DNA from: Lachnospiraceae bacterium NK4A179
GTDB lineage: Bacteria > Bacillota > Clostridia > Lachnospirales > Lachnospiraceae
DNA length: 47,777 nucleotides
Assembly: GCA_000421045.1 (NCBI GenBank)
Contig: ATWC01000024.1
Span: forward strand, 1-47,777
Direction of reading: 5' to 3'
Shown: piece by piece, positions 3,576 through 33,483 of the stretch
How the letters are laid out: every line of letters begins with the position of its first letter
Numbering within the stretch: the first letter of the stretch is position 1
Position numbers and translations under genes: made by a program
The notes under the pieces: generated by a model
What the model saw: only the letters and a program-made list of their open reading frames with translations
Told to the model about the DNA's origin: nothing
Databases searched by the model: none

Positions 3576-4571
3576 ATGAAGGGAGCATTTAATACTCTGA
3601 GATCTTTTAAAAGGATCCCGGACATTACACTCTATTCTTTGGATTATACGGCTGATTATCAGTTGGAACGTCTGCTAAAGATGGGGGCGGGAAGTGACAG
3701 TGAATTTGCAAACAATGTCTGCAGGATACTTCTGAACGGACTTCCCGTGAAAATAAGGCCCGAAGGGGCATGCAGCACCTTTGTTGCAGATACTCCTGAA
3801 AGTGAACGGCTTTTAGCCAGAAATTTTGACTATAAGACAGGTATGGCTATGCTCGTGAAGACCTCTCCCAGGAAAGGTTATAGATCACTGGCATTATCTA
3901 ATCTGGGGCATATCGGATTTGACGAGAATAATCTTCCGGAGAAGAACCTGATCAACAGATTTAAGACTCTGGCATCGGTATACAGTCCGCTCGATGGGAT
4001 GAATGAGAAGGGTTTTGCAGTTGCAGTGAATACTGCAGTAGAACAGATAACGCATCAGGATACCGGAAAGACGAAAGTAATGACAACACTTGCAATCAGG
4101 ATGCTGCTGGATAAAGCTTCTGACGTGGAAGATGGCATAAAGATACTGCAAAATGTTGATATGAATTCAAGCGGTAAGATCGGATATCATTTTCAAATGG
4201 CTGATCGGAAGGGGGATTCGGCCGTCATCGAATACATCGATAACAGAATGGTCGTCATCAGGAAAGATAAGGCGGATCCCTGTTTCTGTCTGACGAATTT
4301 CACATTATCGACAGGGGAAAAGAACGGTACCGGTAAAGAGCGCTTTGAGATAATGGAGGAAGACCTGAAAAAGAATAATGCGATCATGAGCGAAACCTCA
4401 GTGATGGAGCTTCTTGATAAGGCTCAAATGGATGGGCACAGATACTATGAGCCAGGTCACATGTATTATGACAGCAAGACCCAGTGGTCCGTAATCTATA
4501 ATCTTTCAAATTGCTCGGCATCTATATCTATAGGCTCGGATTTTGGCAGGTGTTTTAAGGTAAGACTGTGA
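3576..4571 (+). CDS. Linear amide C-N hydrolase (choloylglycine hydrolase / acyltransferase-like Ntn fold)
   Basis: The 331-residue protein shows the signature ACSTF with Cys66 as likely nucleophile, then RNFDY with Arg82 and Asp85. The offsets (+16 and +19) match Cys2, Arg18 and Asp21 of bile salt hydrolases. The 65 residues before Cys66 mean that either a propeptide is cleaved or the protein belongs to the non-processed C45/C59-like branch. These enzymes cut amide bonds in bile salts, penicillins or N-acyl amino acids; the substrate is not predictable. It sits in a run with the TetR gene and the MBL-fold gene. Confidence 0.8.
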   Translation: MKGAFNTLRSFKRIPDITLYSLDYTADYQLERLLKMGAGSDSEFANNVCRILLNGLPVKIRPEGACSTFVADTPESERLLARNFDYKTGMAMLVKTSPRKGYRSLALSNLGHIGFDENNLPEKNLINRFKTLASVYSPLDGMNEKGFAVAVNTAVEQITHQDTGKTKVMTTLAIRMLLDKASDVEDGIKILQNVDMNSSGKIGYHFQMADRKGDSAVIEYIDNRMVVIRKDKADPCFCLTNFTLSTGEKNGTGKERFEIMEEDLKKNNAIMSETSVMELLDKAQMDGHRYYEPGHMYYDSKTQWSVIYNLSNCSASISIGSDFGRCFKVRL

Positions 4572-18127: not shown

Positions 18128-18190
18128 ACCCCCAACCCCGTCCCCCAGGTTCACCCGAAAATGAGCCACAAACCCCGTCCCCTAGGGTCA
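18125..18190. repeat. REP-like palindromic repeat, copy 8
   Basis: Two half units lie between convergent genes. The TGA at 18125 stops the plus-strand gene, and the outer end on the other side (TCA 18188-18190) is the TGA stop of the minus-strand ABC ATPase. Both ends of the element therefore serve as stop codons. Confidence 0.9.
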
Positions 18191-18982
18191 ACAAGCATTA
18201 TTAACTAATTCCATGGGAACAATACCCTTATAAATTCTTCCTTCATGGAATGAATTGACTATATGTGATTCAACACCAAAATACTCACGGATATTTTCTT
18301 CGGTTATTACGCTTGTTGTATCTCCAAAAAGGTAATCCTTTTTTCCAAGTAAAAGTGTCTTATCCGAGCAGCGCAGAGCATGATCCGGATAGTGTGTATT
18401 TATGATGATTGAAAGATTTTCTTTTGCCAGAGCTTCGATAGTCTGTATTACTATCATCTGATTTTTCATATCGAGACCTGATTCAGGTTCATCCATTATA
18501 AGCAGTTTAGGATTTTTTATAAGAGCTCTTGCTATAAGAACCATCTGCAACTGACCACCACTTAACGTATTACAGGACTGCTCTGCTATCTCCTCAATGC
18601 CAAATTTCTGAAGGAGAGCATAAGCCTTTTCATAATCTTCTTTTTTTGGAGTCATTCCTATTCCGATATTCTGTGACAATCCCATCACAACCATATTTAA
18701 AGCACTATATCCAAATACAAGCTTCTTTGCCTGAGGAACATAGCTTATGGTTTTCCAGAATTCTGTCGGAGTCATTTTTGAAACAGGTTTCCCAAGCAGC
18801 TCAACATTTCCTTTTTTCAGCGTAAGAAAATTCATAAGGCAGCGAAGCAGTGTAGTCTTTCCCACGCCGTTAGGCCCTAAGATCGCAAGGGTTGAGCCTT
18901 CTGTAATTTCAAAGGACAGTTCATCAAAAAGAAGTCGTCCGTTTTTCTTATATGAAAATCCTATGTTTTCTGCTTTAAGCAT
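18188..18982 (-). CDS. ABC transporter ATP-binding protein, FecE/BtuD type
   Basis: The ATPase of about 264 residues has Walker A GPNGVGKT, the signature LSGGQ and Walker B LLIMDEP, in the FecE/FhuC/BtuD order. It powers import of an iron chelate, heme or corrinoid-like ligand together with the permease and binding protein upstream. I start it at the ATG overlapping the permease stop (ATGCTTAA), with GGAGG 8 nt upstream. It is the last gene of the six-gene operon running leftward from the NifH-like gene. Its stop is repeat-derived. Confidence 0.9.
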   Translation of the reverse strand: MLKAENIGFSYKKNGRLLFDELSFEITEGSTLAILGPNGVGKTTLLRCLMNFLTLKKGNVELLGKPVSKMTPTEFWKTISYVPQAKKLVFGYSALNMVVMGLSQNIGIGMTPKKEDYEKAYALLQKFGIEEIAEQSCNTLSGGQLQMVLIARALIKNPKLLIMDEPESGLDMKNQMIVIQTIEALAKENLSIIINTHYPDHALRCSDKTLLLGKKDYLFGDTTSVITEENIREYFGVESHIVNSFHEGRIYKGIVPMELVNNAC

Positions 18983-19979
18983 TCCATGCACCTCCGGTTC
19001 TTCTAAGCATAAGAGCGAAGATAGGCGCTCCGATAAGAGCTGTTAAAATTGATAAAGGTATCTCAGCTGCCGTCAGACTTCTTGCACATGTATCAATGAT
19101 CATCATGTAGGAAGCGCCGGTAAGAATACTCATGGGAAGAAGACGTCTGTGGTCGTTACCAACAAGCATTCGTGTAAGATGAGGAACAGCAAGTCCTACA
19201 AATGAAATAACACCGCACATAGAAACAACGGATGCTGCAATAACTGTAGTTGCAATGATCACTATAAGTCTTGTCTGCCTTAAATTTATGCCAAGTGACT
19301 TTGCTTCATCTTCAGATAAAGAAATGACATTGAGTCTCCATCTGAACAACCATAAAACAAATGTGGCCCCACCGATAAGTGGTAATGCAGTCATTACATC
19401 CGACATGGATGCTCCTGCCATGCTGCCCATGAGCCAGTAAGTTATGGACGGAAGTTTCTGCTCGGGATCAGCTATATACTTTATAAAGGATGTAAGCGCC
19501 TCAAAGACAGATCCTACGACAATTCCCGAAAGAACCAGCATGAGAGTGCTGCTTGTTCCTTTTTTTCTGCTTATACAATAAGTCAGAGCCATCCCTAAAA
19601 ATCCAAAGATCATTGAAAAAGTTTCAACATAAGCAAAATGTGAAAAGAGAAGAATTCCAAGAGCGGCTCCAAAGCCTGCACTGTATGAAACACCGAGTAC
19701 ATGTGTGCTTACAAGGGGATTACCAAACATGGCCTGAAGTGCCACGCCTGCAACAGAAAGACCTGCGCCTACTATAAAAGCCACTATGACCCTTGGAATA
19801 CGTACTCCCCACATTATTGTTTCAAGTATAGGATCATTCTGCTGTCCTGTTATCAGATAGAGCAGTACATCATAGGCAGATATGGTGTATCTGCCTATGC
19901 ATAATGCTGCAAGACTGACAAGAAGCGAGATGATCAATCCTGCGATAAAGATAATGATGAATCTTTTATTTCTTTCCAT
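18975..19979 (-). CDS. ABC transporter permease, FecCD/BtuC family
   Basis: The 334-residue polytopic protein has about ten helices and hallmark stretches of the FecCD family: GVRIPRVIVAFIVGAGLSVA near residue 57, NPLVSTHVLGVSYSAGFGA, and CGVISFVGLAVPHLTR near residue 254. One permease gene is present, so the channel is presumably a homodimer. It starts 5 nt after the binding-protein stop and overlaps the ATPase start. Confidence 0.92.
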   Translation of the reverse strand: MERNKRFIIIFIAGLIISLLVSLAALCIGRYTISAYDVLLYLITGQQNDPILETIMWGVRIPRVIVAFIVGAGLSVAGVALQAMFGNPLVSTHVLGVSYSAGFGAALGILLFSHFAYVETFSMIFGFLGMALTYCISRKKGTSSTLMLVLSGIVVGSVFEALTSFIKYIADPEQKLPSITYWLMGSMAGASMSDVMTALPLIGGATFVLWLFRWRLNVISLSEDEAKSLGINLRQTRLIVIIATTVIAASVVSMCGVISFVGLAVPHLTRMLVGNDHRRLLPMSILTGASYMMIIDTCARSLTAAEIPLSILTALIGAPIFALMLRRTGGAWNA

Positions 19980-19984
19980 GATAC

Positions 19985-21208
19985 TTATTTGCCTGATTTA
20001 TTTGCATTCCAGTTTGTTCCTTTAGCCGCATCAGGTGATGCATCAAGGATTCCCTGTGCCTGTTCATCAGTTACGTCATAATCATAGAATTCCTTATAAT
20101 AGTCCTTTATCTCGGCTATCATGTCATAATCAAAAATTTCAGGATGTAAGGTTTTAGCCATCCATTTAACCATGAGCGGGGTATCACCGCAGGGAACATA
20201 CCAGCGATATACACCAAGGGGCTCTTTATATACTTTGCCATTTTTAACAGCGGATACCTGAGACCAGTCCTGACCATCAATGGTATTGTTATAAAGATCA
20301 TCGGGCATTGTTTCTGTGAACGTTGTGAGTATGATGATTTCAGGATCCCACTCATAAATCTGCTCCATATTTACATCACCAAAATTCTCGATTTCTTTAG
20401 CAACGTTATTACCGCCTGCAGCTTCGATCCAGAAACCACCGTAGAAACCTGAACCGGATGCTGATATCTGCTCATTGCTGTGGTTGTAGAGATATAATAC
20501 CCTAGGCTTTTCTTCATCACTAAGAGAAGAAACTTTTTCAGATACTTCATCAAGGGCTGTGTTTGCGTATTCAATAACCTTATCTGTGTTTCCTCTTGTT
20601 CCAAAGAGCTGACCCATGATATCAACCCATGTCTTTAGTGTAGCGACAACATCGCCGCCTTCCTCTCCAAAAACTCCGACAGCAGGGATGTTTACTGAAT
20701 TTAACGCTTCATACTGATTCTCATATTCGCCCCAGTAGATAACAACATCGGGATCGATCTTTAATAATTCCTCCACGTTGATATCCTGACCTTCAACAAA
20801 GTTATCTGCAATACCTACAAGATCAGGATACATGGAACCCATAATACTGTTTTCGATGGCGCTTGTTGAGCCGGGATGAACACCCTTCAGGTTTTCGATG
20901 GGAGCGCCTGTTATCGCATAGATACTCGGAAGCGGAAGAGCAGTAAGGACAACACTGTCGATGTCTCCATCAATTGTAACCTCTCTTCCGTTCATATCAG
21001 TAACTGTGATGCTATCAGAAGATTCTTCACTTGCAGTTTCCTCTGTAGCTGCAGCCTCTTCGGTTGTTTCAGCTTCGGGAGTAGCAGTTTCAGTAACTTC
21101 CTTATCTGCAGTGTTTTCTACAGACTGCGCATCTGCGGAAGCTTTTCCGCATGCGGATAGAGCCAGCATACCGGCTGTAATAAGTGACAAATAAATCTTT
21201 TTTTTCAT
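19985..21208 (-). CDS. ABC transporter substrate-binding lipoprotein, FhuD/BtuF (TroA-like) family
   Basis: The 407-residue lipoprotein has lipobox LSAC with Cys20, then an acidic Glu/Thr-rich linker to about residue 70. The periplasmic-binding fold of the FhuD/BtuF class follows (VTDMNGREVTIDGDIDSVV, LLKIDPDVVIYWGE, EWDPEIIILT). It captures the imported ligand on the outer face of the membrane. The ligand cannot be read from sequence; location after nitrogenase-like genes argues for a metal chelate, tetrapyrrole or the enzyme's own substrate. Confidence 0.88.
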   Translation of the reverse strand: MKKKIYLSLITAGMLALSACGKASADAQSVENTADKEVTETATPEAETTEEAAATEETASEESSDSITVTDMNGREVTIDGDIDSVVLTALPLPSIYAITGAPIENLKGVHPGSTSAIENSIMGSMYPDLVGIADNFVEGQDINVEELLKIDPDVVIYWGEYENQYEALNSVNIPAVGVFGEEGGDVVATLKTWVDIMGQLFGTRGNTDKVIEYANTALDEVSEKVSSLSDEEKPRVLYLYNHSNEQISASGSGFYGGFWIEAAGGNNVAKEIENFGDVNMEQIYEWDPEIIILTTFTETMPDDLYNNTIDGQDWSQVSAVKNGKVYKEPLGVYRWYVPCGDTPLMVKWMAKTLHPEIFDYDMIAEIKDYYKEFYDYDVTDEQAQGILDASPDAAKGTNWNANKSGK

Positions 21209-21233
21209 AGTACCTCCTTATATATGTAAAATA

Positions 21234-22445
21234 TTAAATTGCTGCCTTTTGTGTGAGTTGCGAATGTATAAGACTGCCTATATCCACACCCAAAAAGGAT
21301 TTTGCATCCTTAAAGTGAATATCACCTGAAACCGTGTATTGCGGAAAGGAAACAAAAACTTTCTTATTATCGCCGGATAACAGTTGTTTCATGATAGGAT
21401 CAGCTATTACCACATCATATGCTTCATCATTTATGGCTTCCTGTATCGCATCTTCATCAGGAAGGGCTATGGCGGAATCAGAAGGCAGGCTTTTATCCAC
21501 GCCGAAAATACAACCTACTGAAACGTGATAACCTGCTCCCAAGGAAGCTTTCATGGATTCACCAATGATCTGATCTCCGACAAACAGAACGTTGATATCG
21601 GAATCATCTTTTCCCTGGCTTATAGTAAAAGGACTCTCAAAGAAAAATCCGGATGTCTTTGTATTTATTACTTCACGGAGTATTTTTAAATATGTATCCT
21701 GTGCGCTTTTTCCAAAAGGAAATCCGCAGATATAAGGAATCCCATATCTTTCTTCCATGTACTTTGCAACGAGATATCCTGAATGTGATAAGGCCAGATT
21801 TACCAAAGAAGACCTCGATTCTCTGAGTTCTGAAATGGTGTAACCGTAACCAAGTCGCATAGTGCAGGAGTAACCTTCTTTTTCAAGAAAAGCCTGAAGG
21901 CTGTCTATGTCATTCGAATACTCATAGTCCAGAGGCGTAGCCCCAAGGATATTGAAGCTTAACGCTTTATTGCTGCTGTCAGAAACAGGTTTCCCATAAA
22001 AGGAATCCATCTTCTCAAAAAGTGCCTTTGCTGCTTTGAAGATTCCGATATCGTAATAATCTGTTCCGGTAGTTTCTATTCCTATAGTCGGTATGCCGGT
22101 TTCATTTTCGATTTCATGGGCTAAGCCTTTTAAATCCATTCCTATCACCATAGGGACAGGACTTCCTATAAGAGCAATGAGCTCAGGCTTCAGGGTATTT
22201 ACTGCTTCCAGAACATTTTCTTTCAGCTTTTCATCATTCCCCATGATCACATCGATCATACGAAGGGCAGAACAGAATACTGTAGCTGTTGAACCGTACC
22301 ATCTTGGCTCATCATGCCCTGTGTAATTTCCTGTACATCCGCCTGCATCGTGCATTACTGTGAGTGCGTTCAGATCAAACAGTATTGAACCTGCGCCGGA
22401 ATAATCCGGAGAAAAGGGGGGTAAATACATACATAACTGCGCCAT
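21234..22445 (-). CDS. Nitrogenase-like component 1, NifK/NifE-related subunit
   Basis: The 403-residue protein has the oxidoreductase/nitrogenase component 1 fold. Its N-terminus has PPFSPDYSGAGS, HDAGGCTGNYTG (Cys37, at the place of a P-cluster Cys) and DEPRWYGSTATVFCS. The position where NifD/K carry the third cluster Cys reads IGSPVPMVIG, so that ligand is missing. Cys5 and Cys58 are other candidates. With its partner it likely forms a heterotetramer that receives electrons from the NifH-like protein. It starts directly after the NifD-like stop. Confidence 0.85.
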   Translation of the reverse strand: MAQLCMYLPPFSPDYSGAGSILFDLNALTVMHDAGGCTGNYTGHDEPRWYGSTATVFCSALRMIDVIMGNDEKLKENVLEAVNTLKPELIALIGSPVPMVIGMDLKGLAHEIENETGIPTIGIETTGTDYYDIGIFKAAKALFEKMDSFYGKPVSDSSNKALSFNILGATPLDYEYSNDIDSLQAFLEKEGYSCTMRLGYGYTISELRESRSSLVNLALSHSGYLVAKYMEERYGIPYICGFPFGKSAQDTYLKILREVINTKTSGFFFESPFTISQGKDDSDINVLFVGDQIIGESMKASLGAGYHVSVGCIFGVDKSLPSDSAIALPDEDAIQEAINDEAYDVVIADPIMKQLLSGDNKKVFVSFPQYTVSGDIHFKDAKSFLGVDIGSLIHSQLTQKAAI

Positions 22446-23708
22446 TTATATCACCAATCCATATTCGTTTATCAGTTGTCTTAAGTTTCTTGGCGTATTA
22501 AAAGCTTCCTCCATACGCTGCATCAGGGAAATGACACCGTCATATCCAAACATCTGCAGATCGGAAAAAATGTCTGCAATATACATGGAATCAGCCATGT
22601 AAGCAGCCTGGATTCCGATGGCAAGACTCTCCTTTAATCTGTGGTCAAAGAGTACGGCACTATGCGCATCAGGTCTGTAAAACTCAACCTCCGGGTGATG
22701 TTCCTGTAACCATTCCATGTGAGGCTTGTCAGACTCGGTAACAGCCTCTGCTTCCACACGGATAACATTGAATCCATATTTAAGAAGAGACATAGCCATT
22801 CCAAAAGGCTGGGATGTTGCAGAAGAATCAACAATAACAGGAATATTTCCAATATGGTTAAGTGCTTTCCTTATCGCATGTTCGGCTTCTTTTCTGTAAG
22901 CATCCGGTCCGGAGGACATTTTTTCTCCAATGGCCGATTCTATTTTTCGATAGTCGTTTGCGATCTCATCAAGGTCGTAGGTTACCGGCACTTCAATGTA
23001 TGGAATATCAAAAGTTTGTTCCATTTCCTGTGCTGCAAGCTTTCCAAGAGGATTGAGAACGAGATTAAGTCTGGACTTTGACATCTCAGTAAATTCATCG
23101 AAGGAATCATAATCAGCTGCATGACGGAGTGTTGCTATGCTTCTAAGCTCATTTGTTTCCGGAAGAGGTTCATAAGCACCAAGGATATTTATGCATTTAT
23201 CTTTTGGTATATCATGCAATTCTTTTCCAATATTTTTAAGATAAGTGCCAATGGTTCTGTAGACATCCCTCTGGATCGCAAGTGCCGGGGGCTCTTTGGT
23301 ATTGGTCTTTATCGGATTCATGTGAGAAGACTGAAAAACGATCCCCGGGAATCTATCAGTAAGTTCATCCTTTAATGCAGCATGATCTGTCCCGATAAGG
23401 TCATCAATACAGGTAAAGATCATAATAATGGCACGTGGTTTTTTCTCCAGCTTCTTTAATATGCGCTCAATGGAATCCCCGATAAGGTGGTCATAACCAT
23501 TTACGATGTCGCTCTGGTCAAGATACAGATAAAATATCCTGTCCTTATAGCCATTCTTTATTGCTCCCAGGGCACCATGTCTTCCGCAGGCAGAAGGACC
23601 AACAAACAGTTCAATACTCTCCGGTACCATCAGACCCATGCGGCAGATTCCATAATCGCCTTTACTTGGAGCATCATAGTGCAAACCTCCTTCACACAAG
23701 CACTGCAT
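22446..23708 (-). CDS. Nitrogenase-like component 1, NifD-related subunit
   Basis: The 420-residue protein has component 1 motifs: [13 protein letters not shown] (Cys41) and [12 protein letters not shown] (Cys100), matching two of the three P-cluster Cys positions. Additional cysteines lie at 3, 5 and 22. The Cys and His that hold FeMo-cofactor in true nitrogenase are not recognisable, so this is not a nitrogen-fixing enzyme. The start overlaps the NifH-like gene by 17 nt, with GGAGG inside that gene's 3' end. It belongs to the poorly characterised group IV nitrogenase homologues. Confidence 0.87.
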
Positions 23709-24459
23709 TATTTATTACCTCCACGAACTTTGCCGCCAGCTCTCTGTACCTGTCTGCCATTTCACTTTCAGGGAGAGCTTCTATAACCGTTTTTCCTTCG
23801 CTTTCTGCAAGCTGTACAGCACTATCTCTTGGAACTATATAAAGCACTTCTGTATCATTTTCACCGGCTGCTTTAGAAACGATCTCATCCTCATTCTCAA
23901 CATTTCTGGAATTCTGGATATATCCTGCCAGTTGTGCATAACCTCTTTTCCCGAAATTTCTGATCGCACGGGAGATATTATCAGCTGCAAAAAGAGCCAT
24001 CATTTCACCTGATGTTACGATCATTACCTGGTCTGCATAGCCTCCTCTTATAGGCATGGCAAATCCGCCACATACCACGTCACCAAGGACATCGTAGAGA
24101 ACTATGTCAGGCTCATATACTTCGAATGCATGGAGTTCCTCCAGCTTTTCAAATGCAGTTATAATGCCTCTTCCGGCGCATCCTATTCCCGGTGTAGGGC
24201 CGCCTGATTCAACACAGATAACTCCGCCATAGCCTTCAAAAGTAATATCTTCAAGGGAAAGGTTTTCGCCCTTTTTGGCTATCTGATCTAAGACAGTCGG
24301 GATTCTTTTTCCTCCCATAAGATTTTTAGTGGAATCGGATTTTGGATCACAGCCGATCTGCATGACCTTAAGTCCCATCTGCGAGAGAGCAGCGGAAAGA
24401 TTTGAAGTGGTGGTGGATTTTCCGATACCACCTTTTCCATAGATAGCGACTTTTTTCAT
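23692..24459 (-). CDS. Nitrogenase iron protein-like reductase (NifH/BchL superfamily)
   Basis: The 255-residue protein has Walker A GKGGIGKS at residues 8-15, a CDPKSDST switch, and the two conserved cysteines that bridge a [4Fe-4S] cluster between subunits: GIGCAGRG (Cys94) and [10 protein letters not shown] (Cys130). It should form an ATP-driven dimer donating electrons to the two component 1 subunits encoded next. GGAGG lies 4 nt before the ATG. It is the first gene of the six-gene operon. No nifB, nifE/N or nif regulators are near. Confidence 0.93.
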
Positions 24460-24489
24460 AATCCTCCAAACTAATTACAATAATTGGGT

Positions 24490-24505
24490 TAGTTATATCT
24501 AACTA
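24490..24505. promoter_or_regulatory. Operator-like palindrome in nitrogenase-like operon leader
   Basis: TAGTTA-TATC-TAACTA lies just downstream of the -10 box of the leftward promoter, where a bound repressor would block transcription. A related GTTAG-n6-CTAAC sits in the promoter at 32530. The regulator is unknown. Confidence 0.5.
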
Positions 24506-24515
24506 TGATTAGGGA

Positions 24516-24545
24516 ATTATACAAGCAACCCCCGGGAATTGTCAA
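24516..24545 (-). promoter_or_regulatory. Promoter of the nitrogenase-like operon
   Basis: On the minus strand TTGACA (24545-24540) and TATAAT (24521-24516) are 18 nt apart, both consensus hexamers. The transcript would start about 50 nt before the NifH-like ATG. Confidence 0.75.
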
Positions 24546-24555
24546 TAAAAATTTT

Positions 24556-24624
24556 TGAACCAGGGGGACGGGGTTAGGGGTTCATTTTGAAAAAATGAAC
24601 CCCTAACCCCGTCCCCCTGGTTCA
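24556..24624. repeat. REP-like repeat, copy 9: perfect 69-nt palindrome
   Basis: Two 33-nt arms are exact inverse complements around the 3-nt centre GAA. Each arm starts TGAACCAGGGGGACGGGG. It is the only perfect copy in the window and the only one placed between divergent promoters instead of at a gene end. Confidence 0.95.
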
Positions 24625-24626
24625 TT

Positions 24627-24661
24627 AACCTATTGACAAGGTAGGTAAATAGGTTTATTAT
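24627..24661 (+). promoter_or_regulatory. Promoter of the sulfhydrylase operon with overlapping operator
   Basis: TTGACA (24633-24638) and TATTAT (24656-24661) are 17 nt apart. An inverted repeat AACCTATT / AATAGGTT (24627-24634 and 24648-24655) covers the -35 and spacer, so a repressor bound there would exclude polymerase. An Rrf2/CymR-type cysteine regulator is a reasonable but untested guess. Confidence 0.7.
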
Positions 24662-24693
24662 CTCCACATAGCTATTAAGTAAGGAGGCATGAC

Positions 24694-24795
24694 ATGGACA
24701 AGTTTATTTTGACAAGTGACATTATGATGTGCTGTCGAATGCTTATCTCCCGGGCAAATCATTTGGCCGGTGTGTCGTGTCGATGCTGTTTTTGA
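24694..24795 (+). CDS. Cys-rich regulatory leader peptide
   Basis: This 33-residue frame with AGGAGG 7 nt before the ATG encodes five cysteines: CC at positions 13-14 and CRCC at positions 29-32, in the context RANHLAGVSCRCCF. It sits between a strong promoter and an O-acetylhomoserine sulfhydrylase-like gene and overlaps the pairing segments of an attenuator. It therefore looks like a cysteine-sensing leader, comparable in logic to Cys-rich leaders described in actinobacteria. Confidence 0.8.
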   Translation: MDKFILTSDIMMCCRMLISRANHLAGVSCRCCF

Positions 24796-24860
24796 TCATT
24801 TGATACCAGGATACACTTGTTGATAATTGCCCGGGAGTAATTGATTCCACGGGCTTTTTT
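24747..24860 (+). promoter_or_regulatory. Transcription attenuator (hairpin / antiterminator / terminator)
   Basis: Segment 24747-24757 (CTCCCGGGCAA) inside the leader ORF is perfectly complementary over 11 nt to 24827-24837 (TTGCCCGGGAG). The latter also forms the 5' arm of a terminator (GCCCGGGA with TCC-A-CGGGC, 24829-24854) followed by TTTTTT. The first segment can instead fold with CATTTGGCCGG (24750-24770). A ribosome stalled on Cys codons 29-32 would cover the 3' arm of that first hairpin and free the antiterminator. Confidence 0.8.
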
Positions 24861-24891
24861 ATTTCATTGATAAATTTAGGAGGACAATACA

Positions 24892-26190
24892 ATGTCAGAT
24901 ATAAGTTTCAGCGCAAAAGCTATAAGAGCAGGATATGATTCATCAGAACACTTCAATTCAGTTAATCCGCCTATCTATCAGACGGCTTCCTTCGATCTTC
25001 AGGATATCGACAGAACAAGACGTTTATGGACCGGAGCAGAAGCAGGCGGTATATATTCAAGAGTAGGAAATCCGACAGCTGCTATTCTTGAATCGAGAAT
25101 AGCAGAGCTTGACGGCGGAAAAGCCGCAGTTGCTCTTTCTTCAGGAATGGCTGCCATAACCTACCCCCTTCTTTTACTCGGACAGGGTGGCGGTAATATC
25201 GTAGCGGGATCATCTCTTTATGGTGCAGCTCAGCTTGATCTTGCAGAGTTTTTACCCAAGTATGGAATTAACACAAAGTTTGTAAAGGATAGAACAACCC
25301 CCGAGGCTTATGGTGAACTTATAGATGAGAATACCAAGGCCGTTTATCTTGAATCCATCAGTAATCCTAACATTGAACTTTACGATATCGATGCAATTGC
25401 CAAGATCGCACATGCACACGGTGTTCCGGTTGTTGTTGACAATACTGTGGCTACACCCTATCTGTACAGACCTTTCGAGCATGGTGCCGACATAATAGTA
25501 TATTCAGCAACCAAGGAAATAAATGGTCACGGGAATGTTATCGCAGGTCTCGTTGTAGAGAAAGGTGATTTCCCGTTCGACGAGAAAAAGTATCCGCAGT
25601 TCTATGAGAAAAGCTGGAAGATGAGAGATCTTCAGGATAATAAGAGAAGTGCCGTTGAGTTTATACCGGGTGCTCCTGTGATCGCAGCACTTAAGATCTT
25701 CTTTACAGAATTCTTCGGTGGAGCGCTGGGTTCATTTGAGTCTTATCTCGTTCTTCAGGGCTTATCTACACTTTCTGTCAGATTGGACAAGAAGATCAGT
25801 ACTGTCAAAAAGGTAGTTGAATTCCTTGAAAGTCGTGATGAGGTCGAATTCGTAAGACATCCCTTTGCAAAAGGAAGTGAATTTAAGGCACTTGCTGACA
25901 GAGATTTTCCCAAAGGTCCCGGAGCGCTTTTATCATTCGGTTTCAAGGGCACCCGTGAACAGGAAGGTAAATTCATAAAGTCGCTTAAAAACTTCAGTTA
26001 TCACGTTAATATCGGAGATGTAAGATCTCTTATCACGAATCCGCCTGAGAATACGCATACCGAACTTGATCCAGAGCTGCGTGATCTGGCAGGTGTTCCC
26101 GATAACCTGATCAGACTTTCAATAGGTCTTGAGGATCCGGAGGATCTGATAAACGATCTCACACAGGCATTTGAAAAGGCTTTTTCCTGA
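24892..26190 (+). CDS. O-acetylhomoserine sulfhydrylase-like PLP enzyme (MetY type)
   Basis: The 432-residue Cys/Met-metabolism PLP enzyme has SRVGNPT near residue 56, SSGMAA, the PLP-facing VVDNT (Asp183) and the Schiff-base lysine in YSATKEINGHGN (Lys208). Length and the ending motif SIGLEDPEDLINDL fit O-acetylhomoserine aminocarboxypropyltransferases, which join sulfide or methanethiol to O-acetylhomoserine. AGGAGG lies 9 nt upstream. Control by the Cys attenuator and divergence from the nitrogenase-like operon tie it to sulfur assimilation or salvage. Confidence 0.88.
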   Translation: MSDISFSAKAIRAGYDSSEHFNSVNPPIYQTASFDLQDIDRTRRLWTGAEAGGIYSRVGNPTAAILESRIAELDGGKAAVALSSGMAAITYPLLLLGQGGGNIVAGSSLYGAAQLDLAEFLPKYGINTKFVKDRTTPEAYGELIDENTKAVYLESISNPNIELYDIDAIAKIAHAHGVPVVVDNTVATPYLYRPFEHGADIIVYSATKEINGHGNVIAGLVVEKGDFPFDEKKYPQFYEKSWKMRDLQDNKRSAVEFIPGAPVIAALKIFFTEFFGGALGSFESYLVLQGLSTLSVRLDKKISTVKKVVEFLESRDEVEFVRHPFAKGSEFKALADRDFPKGPGALLSFGFKGTREQEGKFIKSLKNFSYHVNIGDVRSLITNPPENTHTELDPELRDLAGVPDNLIRLSIGLEDPEDLINDLTQAFEKAFS

Positions 26191-26208
26191 TAGCGGAGGT
26201 AAATGATC

Positions 26209-27015
26209 ATGGCAAACGAATTTAAAGATAAAACAATATTCATCACAGGCGCTGCTAAAGGACAGGGAAGAGCAGTTGCTTTAGCCTTTGCCAAAGAAGG
26301 TGCAAACATAATCGCATTTGATCTCGGTGAAAGGATCGAGTATCCGGCATATAACAGATCTTCTAATGAAGACCTTGAGAAACTTAAGTCTGAGGTTGAG
26401 AGCGAAGGTGGAAAGATACTTATATATGCAGGCGATGTGCGAAAGGCAGCTGATGTTGAGGAGGCTGTTGAGCGCGGTGTTAAAGAGTTCGGCGGTATTG
26501 ATATACTCTTCAGCAATGCCGGTATCGCTGCTTACGGATATTCATGGGAACTTACGGAGGATCAATGGGATGCCTTGATAGAAGTTAATCTTAAGGGCGG
26601 CTTCCTCGTATCAAAGTACGTCATCCCTCATCTTATCGAGAAGAAAAGCGGTGTGATAATCTACAATTCATCTGTAGCGGGTCTGCGTGGTTTTGGAAGA
26701 ATGAGTCATTATGCAGCTTCAAAGCACGGACTTGTCGGGCTTGCTAAGTCTCAGGCAATAGAACTTGCTCCATACGGCATAAGAGTCGTTACTCTTCACC
26801 CGACAGGAGTTAACACGCCGATGAACGACGGACTTGCTGAACTTGAAGGAACAACTCCTACTGAGATCGCCGAGAGATCGGCAGGAAATCTTCTTAGAAC
26901 TCCTTGGATCGAAACGGAAGATATTGTAGAAGCCGTAAAGTATATAGCGAGCGACAAAGCAAGATATATGACAGGTAATCAGTTCGTACTTGATGCAGGT
27001 CTGCTGACACGGTGA
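26209..27015 (+). CDS. SDR-family NAD(P)-dependent oxidoreductase
   Basis: The 268-residue classical short-chain dehydrogenase has the nucleotide motif TGAAKGQGR (near residue 13), SNAGIA, and the catalytic series YNSSVAG with HYAASKHG (Tyr168, Lys172). TGAAKGQGR resembles the subgroup often annotated as carveol-dehydrogenase or mycofactocin-linked SDRs. I start it at ATG 26209, where GGAGG is 9 nt away; ATG 26203 is too close. The gap to the sulfhydrylase is 18 nt, so they form one operon. Substrate unknown. The stop is repeat-derived. Confidence 0.88.
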   Translation: MANEFKDKTIFITGAAKGQGRAVALAFAKEGANIIAFDLGERIEYPAYNRSSNEDLEKLKSEVESEGGKILIYAGDVRKAADVEEAVERGVKEFGGIDILFSNAGIAAYGYSWELTEDQWDALIEVNLKGGFLVSKYVIPHLIEKKSGVIIYNSSVAGLRGFGRMSHYAASKHGLVGLAKSQAIELAPYGIRVVTLHPTGVNTPMNDGLAELEGTTPTEIAERSAGNLLRTPWIETEDIVEAVKYIASDKARYMTGNQFVLDAGLLTR

Positions 27016-32529: not shown

Positions 32530-32559
32530 GTTAGCAATGTCTAACTAATGTGCTATAAT
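32530..32559 (+). promoter_or_regulatory. Promoter with GTTAG-n6-CTAAC palindrome
   Basis: TATAAT at 32554-32559 is preceded at 17 nt by a weak TTAGCA (32531-32536). The palindrome GTTAG-CAATGT-CTAAC (32530-32545) covers the -35. CCATTAT/ATAATGG arms in the leader form a further inverted repeat. It drives the hydrolase at 32629. Confidence 0.5.
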
Positions 32560-32628: not shown

Positions 32629-33483
32629 ATGCGAACATATTCAGAAGAAGAGAAAGAATTTTTAAAATGTCATAGTTACTCGGAAGATGTGATAGACGGT
32701 CACAAACTCCGCTATGTTATATCCGGCACAGAGAATAAACAAGCTATCGTATTCATGAACGGCCTCGAAATTCAGCAAATGTTCATGCGCTATGTTGAGG
32801 CCTTCGAAGATCAATATCAAACTCTGATAATAGAATATCCAACAGATACAAAAAATAATGATGAGCAGCTTTCAGTAATTCATAGTCTGCTGGAAAAACT
32901 AAATATAAAGAATCCTGTCATGATCGGCGCAAGTGACGGCGGAATGCTGGCTCAGTTATATACAAGGCGATATAAAGATATCTGTGCGCTGATCCTTATG
33001 GCAACGGTTACGCTTGATTCGGAGTATCTTGAATCGGATAGAAAAAGGCCGTGGTTTACCAAAGTGCTTACAACAGCGTTTAGGATCGTGCCATGGAAAT
33101 TAGCCGGTAATATACTGACAAAAAAAGTTAACACATACTATGAAGGTGAAAGCGAAGATGAAATGGCATATGGAGCAAGCTTCTTCCGGATGATCGCCGA
33201 AAATCGCCGTAATAAAGAAAAGCTGATACATTCGTTTAGAATGGTTGGAGAATTGATACATGAACCCCTCATGAAGACATCGGATTTTGAATGTGTTCGA
33301 GGCCGGATACTTCTGTTGCAACCAGAAAACGATATCTTTTCGAAGAAAGATCAAAAAACGATCGAAGTATTATTGCCGGAGCCGGAAGTGCATTATATCC
33401 GTGGAAGTCATCATGGCCCCTGGGTCTTGCAGGATGAGTACATTATCAAAATAAAGAATTTCCTTAATCGGATCGTCATATAA
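32629..33483 (+). CDS. Alpha/beta hydrolase
   Basis: The 284-residue protein has the nucleophile elbow IGASDGGMLA (Ser102), an N-terminal AIVFMNGLE oxyanion strand and the C-terminal GSHHGPWV histidine, a full catalytic series for an esterase/lipase-like hydrolase. GGAGAG lies 5 nt before the ATG. Substrate unknown. It is followed by the ATC hydrolase-like gene but separated by a degenerate repeat, so the operon relation is unclear. Confidence 0.85.
   Translation: MRTYSEEEKEFLKCHSYSEDVIDGHKLRYVISGTENKQAIVFMNGLEIQQMFMRYVEAFEDQYQTLIIEYPTDTKNNDEQLSVIHSLLEKLNIKNPVMIGASDGGMLAQLYTRRYKDICALILMATVTLDSEYLESDRKRPWFTKVLTTAFRIVPWKLAGNILTKKVNTYYEGESEDEMAYGASFFRMIAENRRNKEKLIHSFRMVGELIHEPLMKTSDFECVRGRILLLQPENDIFSKKDQKTIEVLLPEPEVHYIRGSHHGPWVLQDEYIIKIKNFLNRIVI

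Follow-up and report, generated by a model that had tools for sequence, protein, structure and literature searches.

What might a nitrogenase-like reductase do when it is encoded in one operon with its own ABC importer? The question arises in a 47,777-nt stretch of DNA from Lachnospiraceae bacterium NK4A179 (hereafter the window), where such genes lie back to back with a MetY-like gene. A preliminary description had taken the region as one divergent locus for sulfur salvage, related to methylthio-alkane reductase (Mar), with an importer possibly bringing in either its own substrate or a metal chelate. Similar genes are known: the sections of Dos Santos et al. (2012; PMC3464626) that deal with them describe, for Clostridia and Methanocorpusculum, NifH and two divergent component-1 genes that adjoin genes for ABC transporters. 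They suggest that metal transport may be coupled to the assembly of a cofactor, and present no test of function. We found no published function or iron link for importer-linked nitrogenase-like enzymes in the open-licence literature searched. What is new here, relative to the group IV genes as treated in those sections, is an iron-type operator, a broader survey of loci, and evidence that excludes Mar.

Two divergent units

All genes named in the preliminary description are open frames where it placed them, as both ORFs and profile matches attest. On the minus strand, nflH (23692-24459) encodes a NifH-like ATP-dependent reductase of 255 aa from the Fer4_NifH family (PF00142, 331 bits), with a YGKGGIGKS P-loop and paired Cys read in the sequence; its best curated models, CfbC and NifH, score 345 bits each, both under their own cut-offs. 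The same strand carries two component-1 subunits, nflD (22446-23708; 420 aa; PF00148, 82 bits) and nflK (21234-22445; 403 aa; PF00148, 106 bits), and an importer made of a substrate-binding lipoprotein of the Peripla_BP_2 type (19985-21208; 407 aa; PF01497, 86 bits), a FecCD-type permease (18975-19979; 334 aa; PF01032, 289 bits) and an ATPase (18188-18991; 267 aa; PF00005, 110 bits). An attempt to name the two subunits as alpha and beta types failed: the D profile matches NifE best and the K profile NifD, so NflD and NflK are named by gene order only.

A sigma-A-like promoter for nflHDK-fecBCD is predicted from the sequence at 24516-24545 (minus strand; TTGACA, 18 nt, TATAAT). Another, read in the same way at 24633-24661 (plus strand; TTGACA, 17 nt, TATTAT), would serve a Cys leader peptide ORF (24694-24795; 33 aa with 5 Cys, MDKFILTSDIMMCCRMLISRANHLAGVSCRCCF), a MetY-like enzyme of the O-acetylhomoserine sulfhydrylase family (24892-26190; PF01053, 367 bits; TIGR01326, 409 bits, under the cut-off of 495) and an SDR oxidoreductase (26203-27015; PF00106; TIGR03971, 291 bits, under the cut-off of 300), all on the plus strand. 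The two predicted promoters diverge between nflH and the Cys leader, and the nfl-fec genes and the leader-MetY-SDR genes are two units rather than the single locus first proposed. Between them lies a long perfect inverted repeat (24557-24626), possibly a two-way terminator or a repeated element; partial copies of it occur at other places in the window. The preliminary description had noted neither this repeat nor the palindrome and the second, Mar-type cluster described below.

The leader region (24749-24860, plus strand) holds a predicted antiterminator, whose arm at 24749-24757 pairs 9/9 with 24827-24835; the latter arm overlaps a predicted terminator stem (24829-24854), after which comes a T run. 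Its fold has a z of -2.0, with 4 of 200 shuffles folding equally well, and leader-MetY-SDR is probably controlled by Cys attenuation. By eye, no Cys leader is seen in the ~60-nt region 5' of nflH.

That the MetY-SDR pair under its Cys leader serves sulfur salvage, as had been proposed, agrees with its surroundings in related genomes. Specifically, a Mar-type cluster adjoins the MetY ortholog in 4 of the 6 congeners that have one, MCCCRM-type leaders stand 5' of metY in 4 of these 6, and an SDR that is 84-85% identical lies beside Mar-type genes in L217, L218 and L220 (at least 60% in L219). The window's genome also has a Mar-type cluster, on another contig (MarD, 413 bits against R. rubrum Mar). 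The Mar-type stretches are a chosen sample, i.e. L035, 18 of the genomes with a match, and L217-L220; NifB-type MarB is present in 17/23 of them and MetY in 18/23, or 14/19 once L217-L220 are left out, as these were fetched for their MetY and are not independent support for a MetY-Mar link. Leader-MetY-SDR is thus best described as a predicted sulfur-salvage unit, separate from the nfl operon beside it.

Position of NflDK in the nitrogenase superfamily

If the neighboring unit serves sulfur, NflHDK might itself be Mar or a related sulfur-salvage reductase acting together with the importer, MetY and the SDR. The adjoining MetY-SDR pair behind its Cys leader, found beside a Mar-type cluster in congeners, speaks for this, and isethionate reductase provides an example of a nitrogenase-like enzyme and an importer serving sulfur, according to the parts of PMC11423573 that describe it. 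The preliminary description had named a neighborhood comparison beforehand as one refuting test of its sulfur reading. We surveyed 85 distinct loci of relatives (90 less the repeats L036, L038, L039, L040, and L041), with neighbor counts repeated by tblastn because the ORF caller drops overlapping genes. By tblastn, a MetY-like gene lies near NflK in 0/85 loci, against the 18/23 (14/19) Mar-type loci above, and NifB is likewise near NflK in 0/85. As far as these loci go, the outcome is the one named in advance as refuting. A looser blastp search gave one weak PLP-enzyme match, in L121, which tblastn did not reproduce.

The residues of the two subunits also differ from those of Mar. NflD Cys41 and Cys100 are invariant in 54 aligned sequences, and NflK Cys37 is invariant in 57, with Cys58 nearly so. 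Of the six P-cluster Cys, the D rows of the window family (TrD) keep two and its K rows (TrK) one of three positions each (26/26 rows each), while Nif and Mar rows in the same comparison have all six; the ligand of the large cofactor is absent from 25/26 D rows and 26/26 K rows. The window family therefore lacks what marks N2-fixing nitrogenase, namely Cys275 as ligand of the FeMo-cofactor and a complete set of P-cluster Cys, and PDB-based alignments agree. As in the window family, some members described in PMC3464626 have their conserved Cys divided two to one between the subunits, as far as the relevant sections go. In R. rubrum MarD numbering, Cys270 occurs in 1, Arg428 in 0 and His429 in 0 of the 26 TrD rows, compared with 9/9 for each in MarD rows, and at the Cys270 column the residue of the window's NflD is N.

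In the superfamily tree that had also been called for (a quick search with SH-aLRT and no bootstrap), the window's D falls in a TrD+HypD clade and its K in a TrK+HypK clade, at 100% SH-aLRT each, both outside the Mar clade. MarBHDK, as characterized in PMC12552129, resembles NflHDK in pairing a NifH-type reductase with a two-subunit catalytic component; it has six P-cluster Cys, Cys270, Arg428, His429, and MarB, whereas the window family has three of the six P-cluster Cys and no NifB-type gene nearby. Mar membership of NflHDK is rejected on residues, clade, NifB and neighbors. With a Mar-type cluster present elsewhere in the genome and an operator of iron type (below), the sulfur role first assigned to the nitrogenase-like enzyme is scarcely credible.

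A second sulfur enzyme to compare is IsrBHDK with SsuCAB: PMC11423573 describes a nitrogenase-like enzyme lacking the ligands of the large cofactor, plus an importer, and states that Isr depends on IsrB, which is a radical SAM protein, and on an importer of sulfonates. The P-cluster-type Cys reported there number one in IsrD and three in IsrK, versus two and one in the window family. As listed from ORFs and profile matches, the genes of the window operon include neither IsrB nor an SsuCAB-type importer, and SsuA/SsuC-like genes lie near 1/85 relatives. The Cys pattern and the tree led us to set Isr identity aside; congener sequences whose Cys pattern is of Isr type (a label assigned here) group with Mar in the tree. 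The analysis also distinguishes the nfl family from Mar and Isr, two kinds of sulfur enzyme for which proximity makes it easily mistaken.

AlphaFold2 models were made of NflD (pLDDT 91.6) and NflK (pLDDT 85.8). NflD matches NifK, VnfK, NifEN, Mar and DPOR chains in Foldseek, and the first match of NflK is BchB of DPOR, with an identity of about 15-16%. DPOR (BchLNB) resembles the proposed nfl system in its NifH-like donor, its small [4Fe-4S] cluster and a substrate, protochlorophyllide, that is bound in the protein. It differs from the nfl system in this low identity and in the importer that the nfl operon carries.

An operator shared with iron genes

A putative palindromic operator, GTTAG-N6-CTAAC, lies at 24488-24503, between the -10 box, which it follows by 12 nt, and the start codon of nflH, which it precedes by 28 nt. 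The exact site is present in 28 of 73 nflH upstream regions, the window included, and the same palindrome with any other spacer from 0 to 14 occurs in 0 of the 73; with repeats kept, 30 of 78 regions have the exact site, where shuffles give a mean of 0.005. It is missing from 45/73 regions, and a relaxed site from 35/73.

The window's genome has nine exact sites in all. Two of them form a pair in front of feoA-feoB, a third precedes a second feo operon, and flavodoxin, nflH and an MntP-family gene have a single site each. Of the remaining three, two stand in front of genes read by eye as alpha/beta hydrolases and one has no assigned gene; the identities of FeoA, FeoB, MntP and flavodoxin were confirmed. 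When one mismatch is allowed, own-genome sites are not above control (32 vs 43), so the argument relies on exact sites alone and on where they lie. Across eight genomes with the operon, exact versus reversed patterns number 16/2, 14/2, 12/7, 8/0, 8/0, 4/2, 4/1, and 10/5, and the exact site is found in none of 14 Mar-type, 2 MetY-SDR, and 10 Hyp-type stretches.

A wider check covered 32 sites in 20 stretches from four other genomes with the operon. Seven sites lie before feoA or feoB (L269, L273, L278, L282), one before a DtxR-family gene (L282), and three within the nfl locus itself (L281); most of the 32 are not before feo, several of them lying instead at exporter-type ABC pairs (L264-L266 and L275), an enolase, a metal P-type ATPase, or unassigned genes. 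The operator common to the nfl operon, feo genes and flavodoxin marks a putative iron-type regulon. We infer that a DtxR-family regulator pairs with it: the window's genome has one gene of this family, and 4/83 distinct loci have such a gene no farther than 6.5 kb from the operon. The metal sensed could be Mn, given the MntP-family gene behind one own-genome site and an L282 regulator that scores best with MntR models, under their cut-offs. Crp-like genes stand near 14/83 distinct loci, so regulation varies among loci.

The importer and a proposed role in iron release

Importer genes are conserved neighbors of nflK. FecCD lies near NflK in 76/85 distinct loci and a binding protein in 78/85 (80/90 and 82/90 before repeats were dropped), with the nine loci lacking FecCD scored as misses even though three are contigs of 3.5-4.3 kb. 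Named records in the survey include Lachnospiraceae, Oscillospiraceae, Synergistaceae, Treponema, Syntrophomonas, and Methanospirillum. By profile matches, lipoprotein, permease and ATPase in the one operon all belong to the families of FecBCD/BtuFCD; as no component reaches an NCBIfam equivalog cut-off, the substrate is not named.

The nearest solved relatives of the binding protein are 4ovk (205 bits) and then HI1472 (82 bits), a molybdate/tungstate binder. The latter resemblance would suit import of molybdate, tungstate, another oxyanion or a metal, with an unrelated redox role for NflDK. This is very unlikely, as 4ovk is far closer and no molybdate transport gene was recognized by eye beside the operator sites read. 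Import and reduction of a nonheme tetrapyrrole or corrinoid for cofactor use, the operator reflecting the Fe-S content of the enzyme, would agree with the BchB-like fold of NflK and with BtuC as the top model of the permease (210 bits vs a cut-off of 461). However, neither the window nor seven related loci has an Rfam match, cobalamin riboswitch included, and the operator is common to feo genes; we regard this possibility as quite unlikely.

The importer might instead supply a metal or metal complex for cofactor assembly, with NflDK as scaffold or target, a reading that comes near to what Dos Santos et al. (2012) suggested. The operon link favors this, as do a CobW/HypB/UreG-type GTPase, which lies near 9/83 distinct loci and occurs in the congener loci L177 and L178 alike, and sister copies beside hydrogenase maturation genes. 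Yet NifB is absent from the neighborhood throughout the survey, the large-cofactor ligand is lost from nearly all D and all K rows, and the survey found no client enzyme recurring in the operons, which makes such a role unlikely.

We favor, at about even odds (a probability of roughly 0.5), a reading of nflHDK-fecBCD as an importer under iron control whose cargo, an iron chelate such as heme or a siderophore, is acted on by a coupled ATP-driven reductase. The sequences show the operon and that it is conserved across phyla, the loss of ligands for the P-cluster and the large cofactor, and an operator found also at feo and flavodoxin; a reductase in one operon with a metal-compound importer, behind an apparent switch of the iron-shortage type, probably helps anaerobes to release iron from what is imported. 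Of the two substrates first proposed for the importer, a metal chelate fits this reading.

In this scheme, iron limitation would cause a DtxR-family repressor to leave GTTAG-N6-CTAAC, and the operon would be transcribed. The FecBCD-type importer, judging from its family, may then bring heme, a ferric siderophore or another iron chelate into the cell, while NflH would hydrolyze ATP and hand low-potential electrons to the NflDK complex. NflDK would hold a small cluster, probably [4Fe-4S], and bind the imported compound directly, in the way that DPOR binds protochlorophyllide; its reduction of the chelate would set the iron free. More tentatively, and at a little short of even odds, a branch of the nitrogenase superfamily that ranges from Bacillota, Synergistota and Spirochaetota to a methanogen may serve iron acquisition: under iron shortage, an ATP-driven reductase would strip the metal from heme, or from siderophores whose stability defeats ordinary reductases, after delivery by its own importer. 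The link to an iron-type regulon gives a testable role to importer-linked nitrogenase-like enzymes, to which the literature searched assigns no function since the 2012 report. If true, it would join iron acquisition to nitrogenase-family chemistry and point to a way in which strict anaerobes of guts and sediments exploit iron compounds of high stability.

Sister copies of the nfl genes adjoin hyp and hyd genes, with no FecCD match among those listed. Such hyp/hyd-linked copies suggest that the nfl branch is able to do other work.

Gene neighborhoods of the operon and the sulfur unit

The window, contig C24 of the 3.22-Mb NK4A179 genome, encodes an NflK whose closest named records are from Lachnospiraceae. 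A tight six-gene operon on the minus strand (nflHDK-fecBCD, 18188–24459) specifies a NifH-like protein and two component-1 proteins, followed by the three parts of an importer (binding lipoprotein, FecCD permease, and ATPase). On the plus strand, a leader peptide of 33 residues, five of them Cys, precedes a MetY-like enzyme and an SDR (24694–27015). All the genes inventoried in the preliminary description are present in the sequence. Two sigma-A-type promoters diverge between the units, which are separated by a perfect hairpin repeat (24557–24626; core CCAGGGGGACGGGG). Partial copies of this repeat lie near 659 and 5287 of the window, and it looks like a repeated palindromic element.

A K-alignment pattern scan of the genomes of 84,980 species confirmed 211 relatives. 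The best 80 of these, together with loci from the same order and two congeners, formed a set of 90, or 85 distinct loci once 5 repeats were set aside. Within 10 kb of NflK, as far as each stretch extends (62 of 85 are at least 15 kb), tblastn finds FecCD in 76 of these 85 loci, the binding protein in 78, a Ssu-type gene in 1, and a MetY-like gene or NifB in none. The same test on methylthio-alkane reductase (Mar)-type loci recovers MetY-like genes in 18/23 (14/19 without four loci fetched for their MetY) and NifB in 17/23, with FecCD and the binding protein both at 0/23. Within the genus, a K match of any kind is present in 10 of the 35 genomes and reaches at least 39% in just three of them (NK4A179, G318, and G321). 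The operons of G318 and G321 (L177 and L178) have other neighbors, including a Crp-like regulator and a CobW/HypB/UreG-type GTPase, and MetY-SDR lies on a different contig. The single sulfur locus originally proposed is thus not sustained, as none of the 85 related loci surveyed has a MetY-like gene near NflK and the adjacency is seen in NK4A179 only; judged by its neighborhoods, the nitrogenase-like operon appears to be something else, distinct from the sulfur unit.

The MetY ortholog occurs in 6 of 34 congeners (76–83% identity), and in four of them (L217–L220) it adjoins Mar-type genes on the same strand. Gene order in L217, L218, and L220 includes SDR, a second PLP enzyme, D, K, H, and NifB, while the L219 stretch stops within K, with H and NifB outside its view. 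Ssu-type transporter genes intervene in L219 and L220, and a cysteine-synthase-type protein and an Rrf2 regulator are confirmed by Pfam in L217 only. MCCCRM-type leaders lie upstream of metY in L217–L220; none was found in L221 and L222, where MetY-SDR occurs alone. Because it adjoins Mar-type genes behind Cys leaders in these congeners, MetY-SDR is assigned to Mar-linked sulfur salvage, and for this unit the earlier sulfur-salvage reading holds. An antiterminator overlapping a terminator is possible in the leader region (z −2.0; 4 of 200 shuffles fold as well), an arrangement typical of attenuation by leader codons.

NK4A179 also has a Mar-type cluster of its own (L035, C1:75500–95000), comprising D, K, NifX, NifB, H, MetY, and a Ssu-type importer. 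The D protein of this cluster aligns with R. rubrum Mar (9fmg) over nearly its full length at 413 bits (next family 120 bits) and retains Cys270, Arg428, and His429, and a leader ORF with four Cys stands before the cluster. The Cys-containing leader sequence upstream reads MLNLFE.LLRQN.RCGRM; contig C36 (L225) has a leader of this type as well, ahead of a MetY-like gene. Congeners G309 and G324 (L223 and L227) carry yet another nitrogenase-like cluster, separate from the Mar-type one, whose Cys pattern (checked in L223) is of the isethionate reductase (Isr) type; it adjoins genes that by eye are cysteine-synthase-like, siroheme-synthase-like, and MetY-like.

Cluster ligands and placement of the D and K proteins

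In an alignment of 111 component-1 subunits, all Nif and Mar rows have the three P-cluster Cys positions filled. The window family retains two of these in D (26/26) and one in K (26/26), and the large-cofactor Cys is found in 1/26 D and 0/26 K rows, with N at that position in the window D. PDB-based profile alignments agree on the ligand residues. K Cys58 is present in 23/26 rows, and a [4Fe-4S] cluster like that of DPOR (BchLNB) could be bound by the three Cys together with this or some other residue.

The window D and K each fall in a clade of their own (100% SH-aLRT, long stems), in quick searches without bootstrap, with long branches meeting at K in one of the trees. Hyp-type copies, the sister sets beside hydrogenase maturation genes, group with them; Mar, Isr-like, and Nif sequences fall elsewhere, so that the Mar membership suggested by the preliminary description is not borne out. 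AlphaFold gives good models (pLDDT 91.6 for D, 85.8 for K); that of D resembles nitrogenase-type subunits, and the first match of K is BchB of DPOR.

An iron-type operator and putative iron release

The palindrome GTTAG-N6-CTAAC (24488–24503) stands 28 nt before nflH and 12 nt past the −10 box. The exact operator occurs in 28 of 73 distinct nflH upstream regions and the relaxed form TTAG-N6-CTAA in 38; exact half-sites with any other spacer of 0–14 occur in none of the 73, and the relaxed form with spacer 10 in 9. Shuffled regions (78, repeats included) hold 0.005 exact operators on average. Nine exact sites are found in NK4A179: two before feoA-feoB (one of these in the spacer from the −35 to the −10 box); single sites before a second feo operon, a flavodoxin gene, nflH, and an MntP-family gene; two before alpha/beta hydrolase genes; and a ninth without a named gene. 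The genome has one DtxR-family gene. With one mismatch allowed, operators in NK4A179 show no excess (32 vs 43 for the reversed pattern), and the argument is therefore built on the exact sites, their spacing, and where they stand. In four further operon-bearing genomes (20 stretches), feoA or feoB lies downstream of 7 of 32 sites and a DtxR-family gene of 1, an nfl locus contains 3, and most of the remainder lead exporter-type ABC pairs or genes without assignment. The exact operator is absent from 14 Mar-type, 2 MetY-SDR, 2 Isr-like, and 10 Hyp-type stretches.

The importer, of the siderophore/heme/B12 class, would bring in an iron chelate, and a low-potential reductase that is powered by ATP and lacks a large cofactor would reduce this chelate to release the iron. 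Heme is an attractive candidate substrate, since known enzymes of the same design (DPOR, COR, and CfbCD) work on tetrapyrroles. Catecholate siderophores are also attractive, because their reduction is too difficult for ordinary reductases. Rival explanations are that the imported compound is an oxyanion or a tetrapyrrole other than heme, or that the importer supplies metal for cofactor assembly. Putative reductive iron release from an imported chelate fits best, given the iron-type control, the importer class, and an ATP-driven reductase without a large cofactor.

Dos Santos et al. (2012; PMC3464626) already described nitrogenase-like genes adjoining ABC transporter genes, as well as Cys275 types linked to sulfhydrylases and hydrogenase-maturation-linked copies; sister nflHDK copies beside hydrogenase maturation genes were described in 2012 in Coprococcus catus, without a function. 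Morimoto et al. (2024; PMC11423573) showed a different nitrogenase-like enzyme with an importer, serving isethionate, and Kountz and Balskus (PMC10418091) mention Mar-like genes in the vicinity of other sulfur gene clusters. Searches of open-licence papers showed no iron-regulon link for nflHDK-fecBCD, and such a link is proposed here for importer-linked nitrogenase-like genes.

A second exact operator in the window (32530–32545) lies 83 nt upstream of an alpha/beta hydrolase gene (32629–33483); the other hydrolase gene with a site is on contig C28 (L239). In a second, distant transporter-linked nflHDK clade, L053 has exact operators at 3638 and 4569, one directly before the binding-protein gene, and the stretches of L030, L031, L033, and L034, each under 4 kb, have none. 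The CobW/HypB/UreG-type GTPase is near the operon in L057, L059, L077, L087, L091, L094, L099, L115, L125, L177, and L178, often accompanied by a soluble ABC-type ATPase and an SBP_bac_6 protein. Sister nflHDK copies in L044–L050, L052, and L054, often as two tandem sets, adjoin genes named by eye as hypF/C/D/E-like, hydE/F-like, and TM1266-like. In a Syntrophomonas assembly (L080, 5077–6854), two related proteins are encoded directly before nflH, the first with a SIR2-like domain and a partial match to the anti-phage model Avs5 (79.5 bits, falling well short of its cut-off, 1000).
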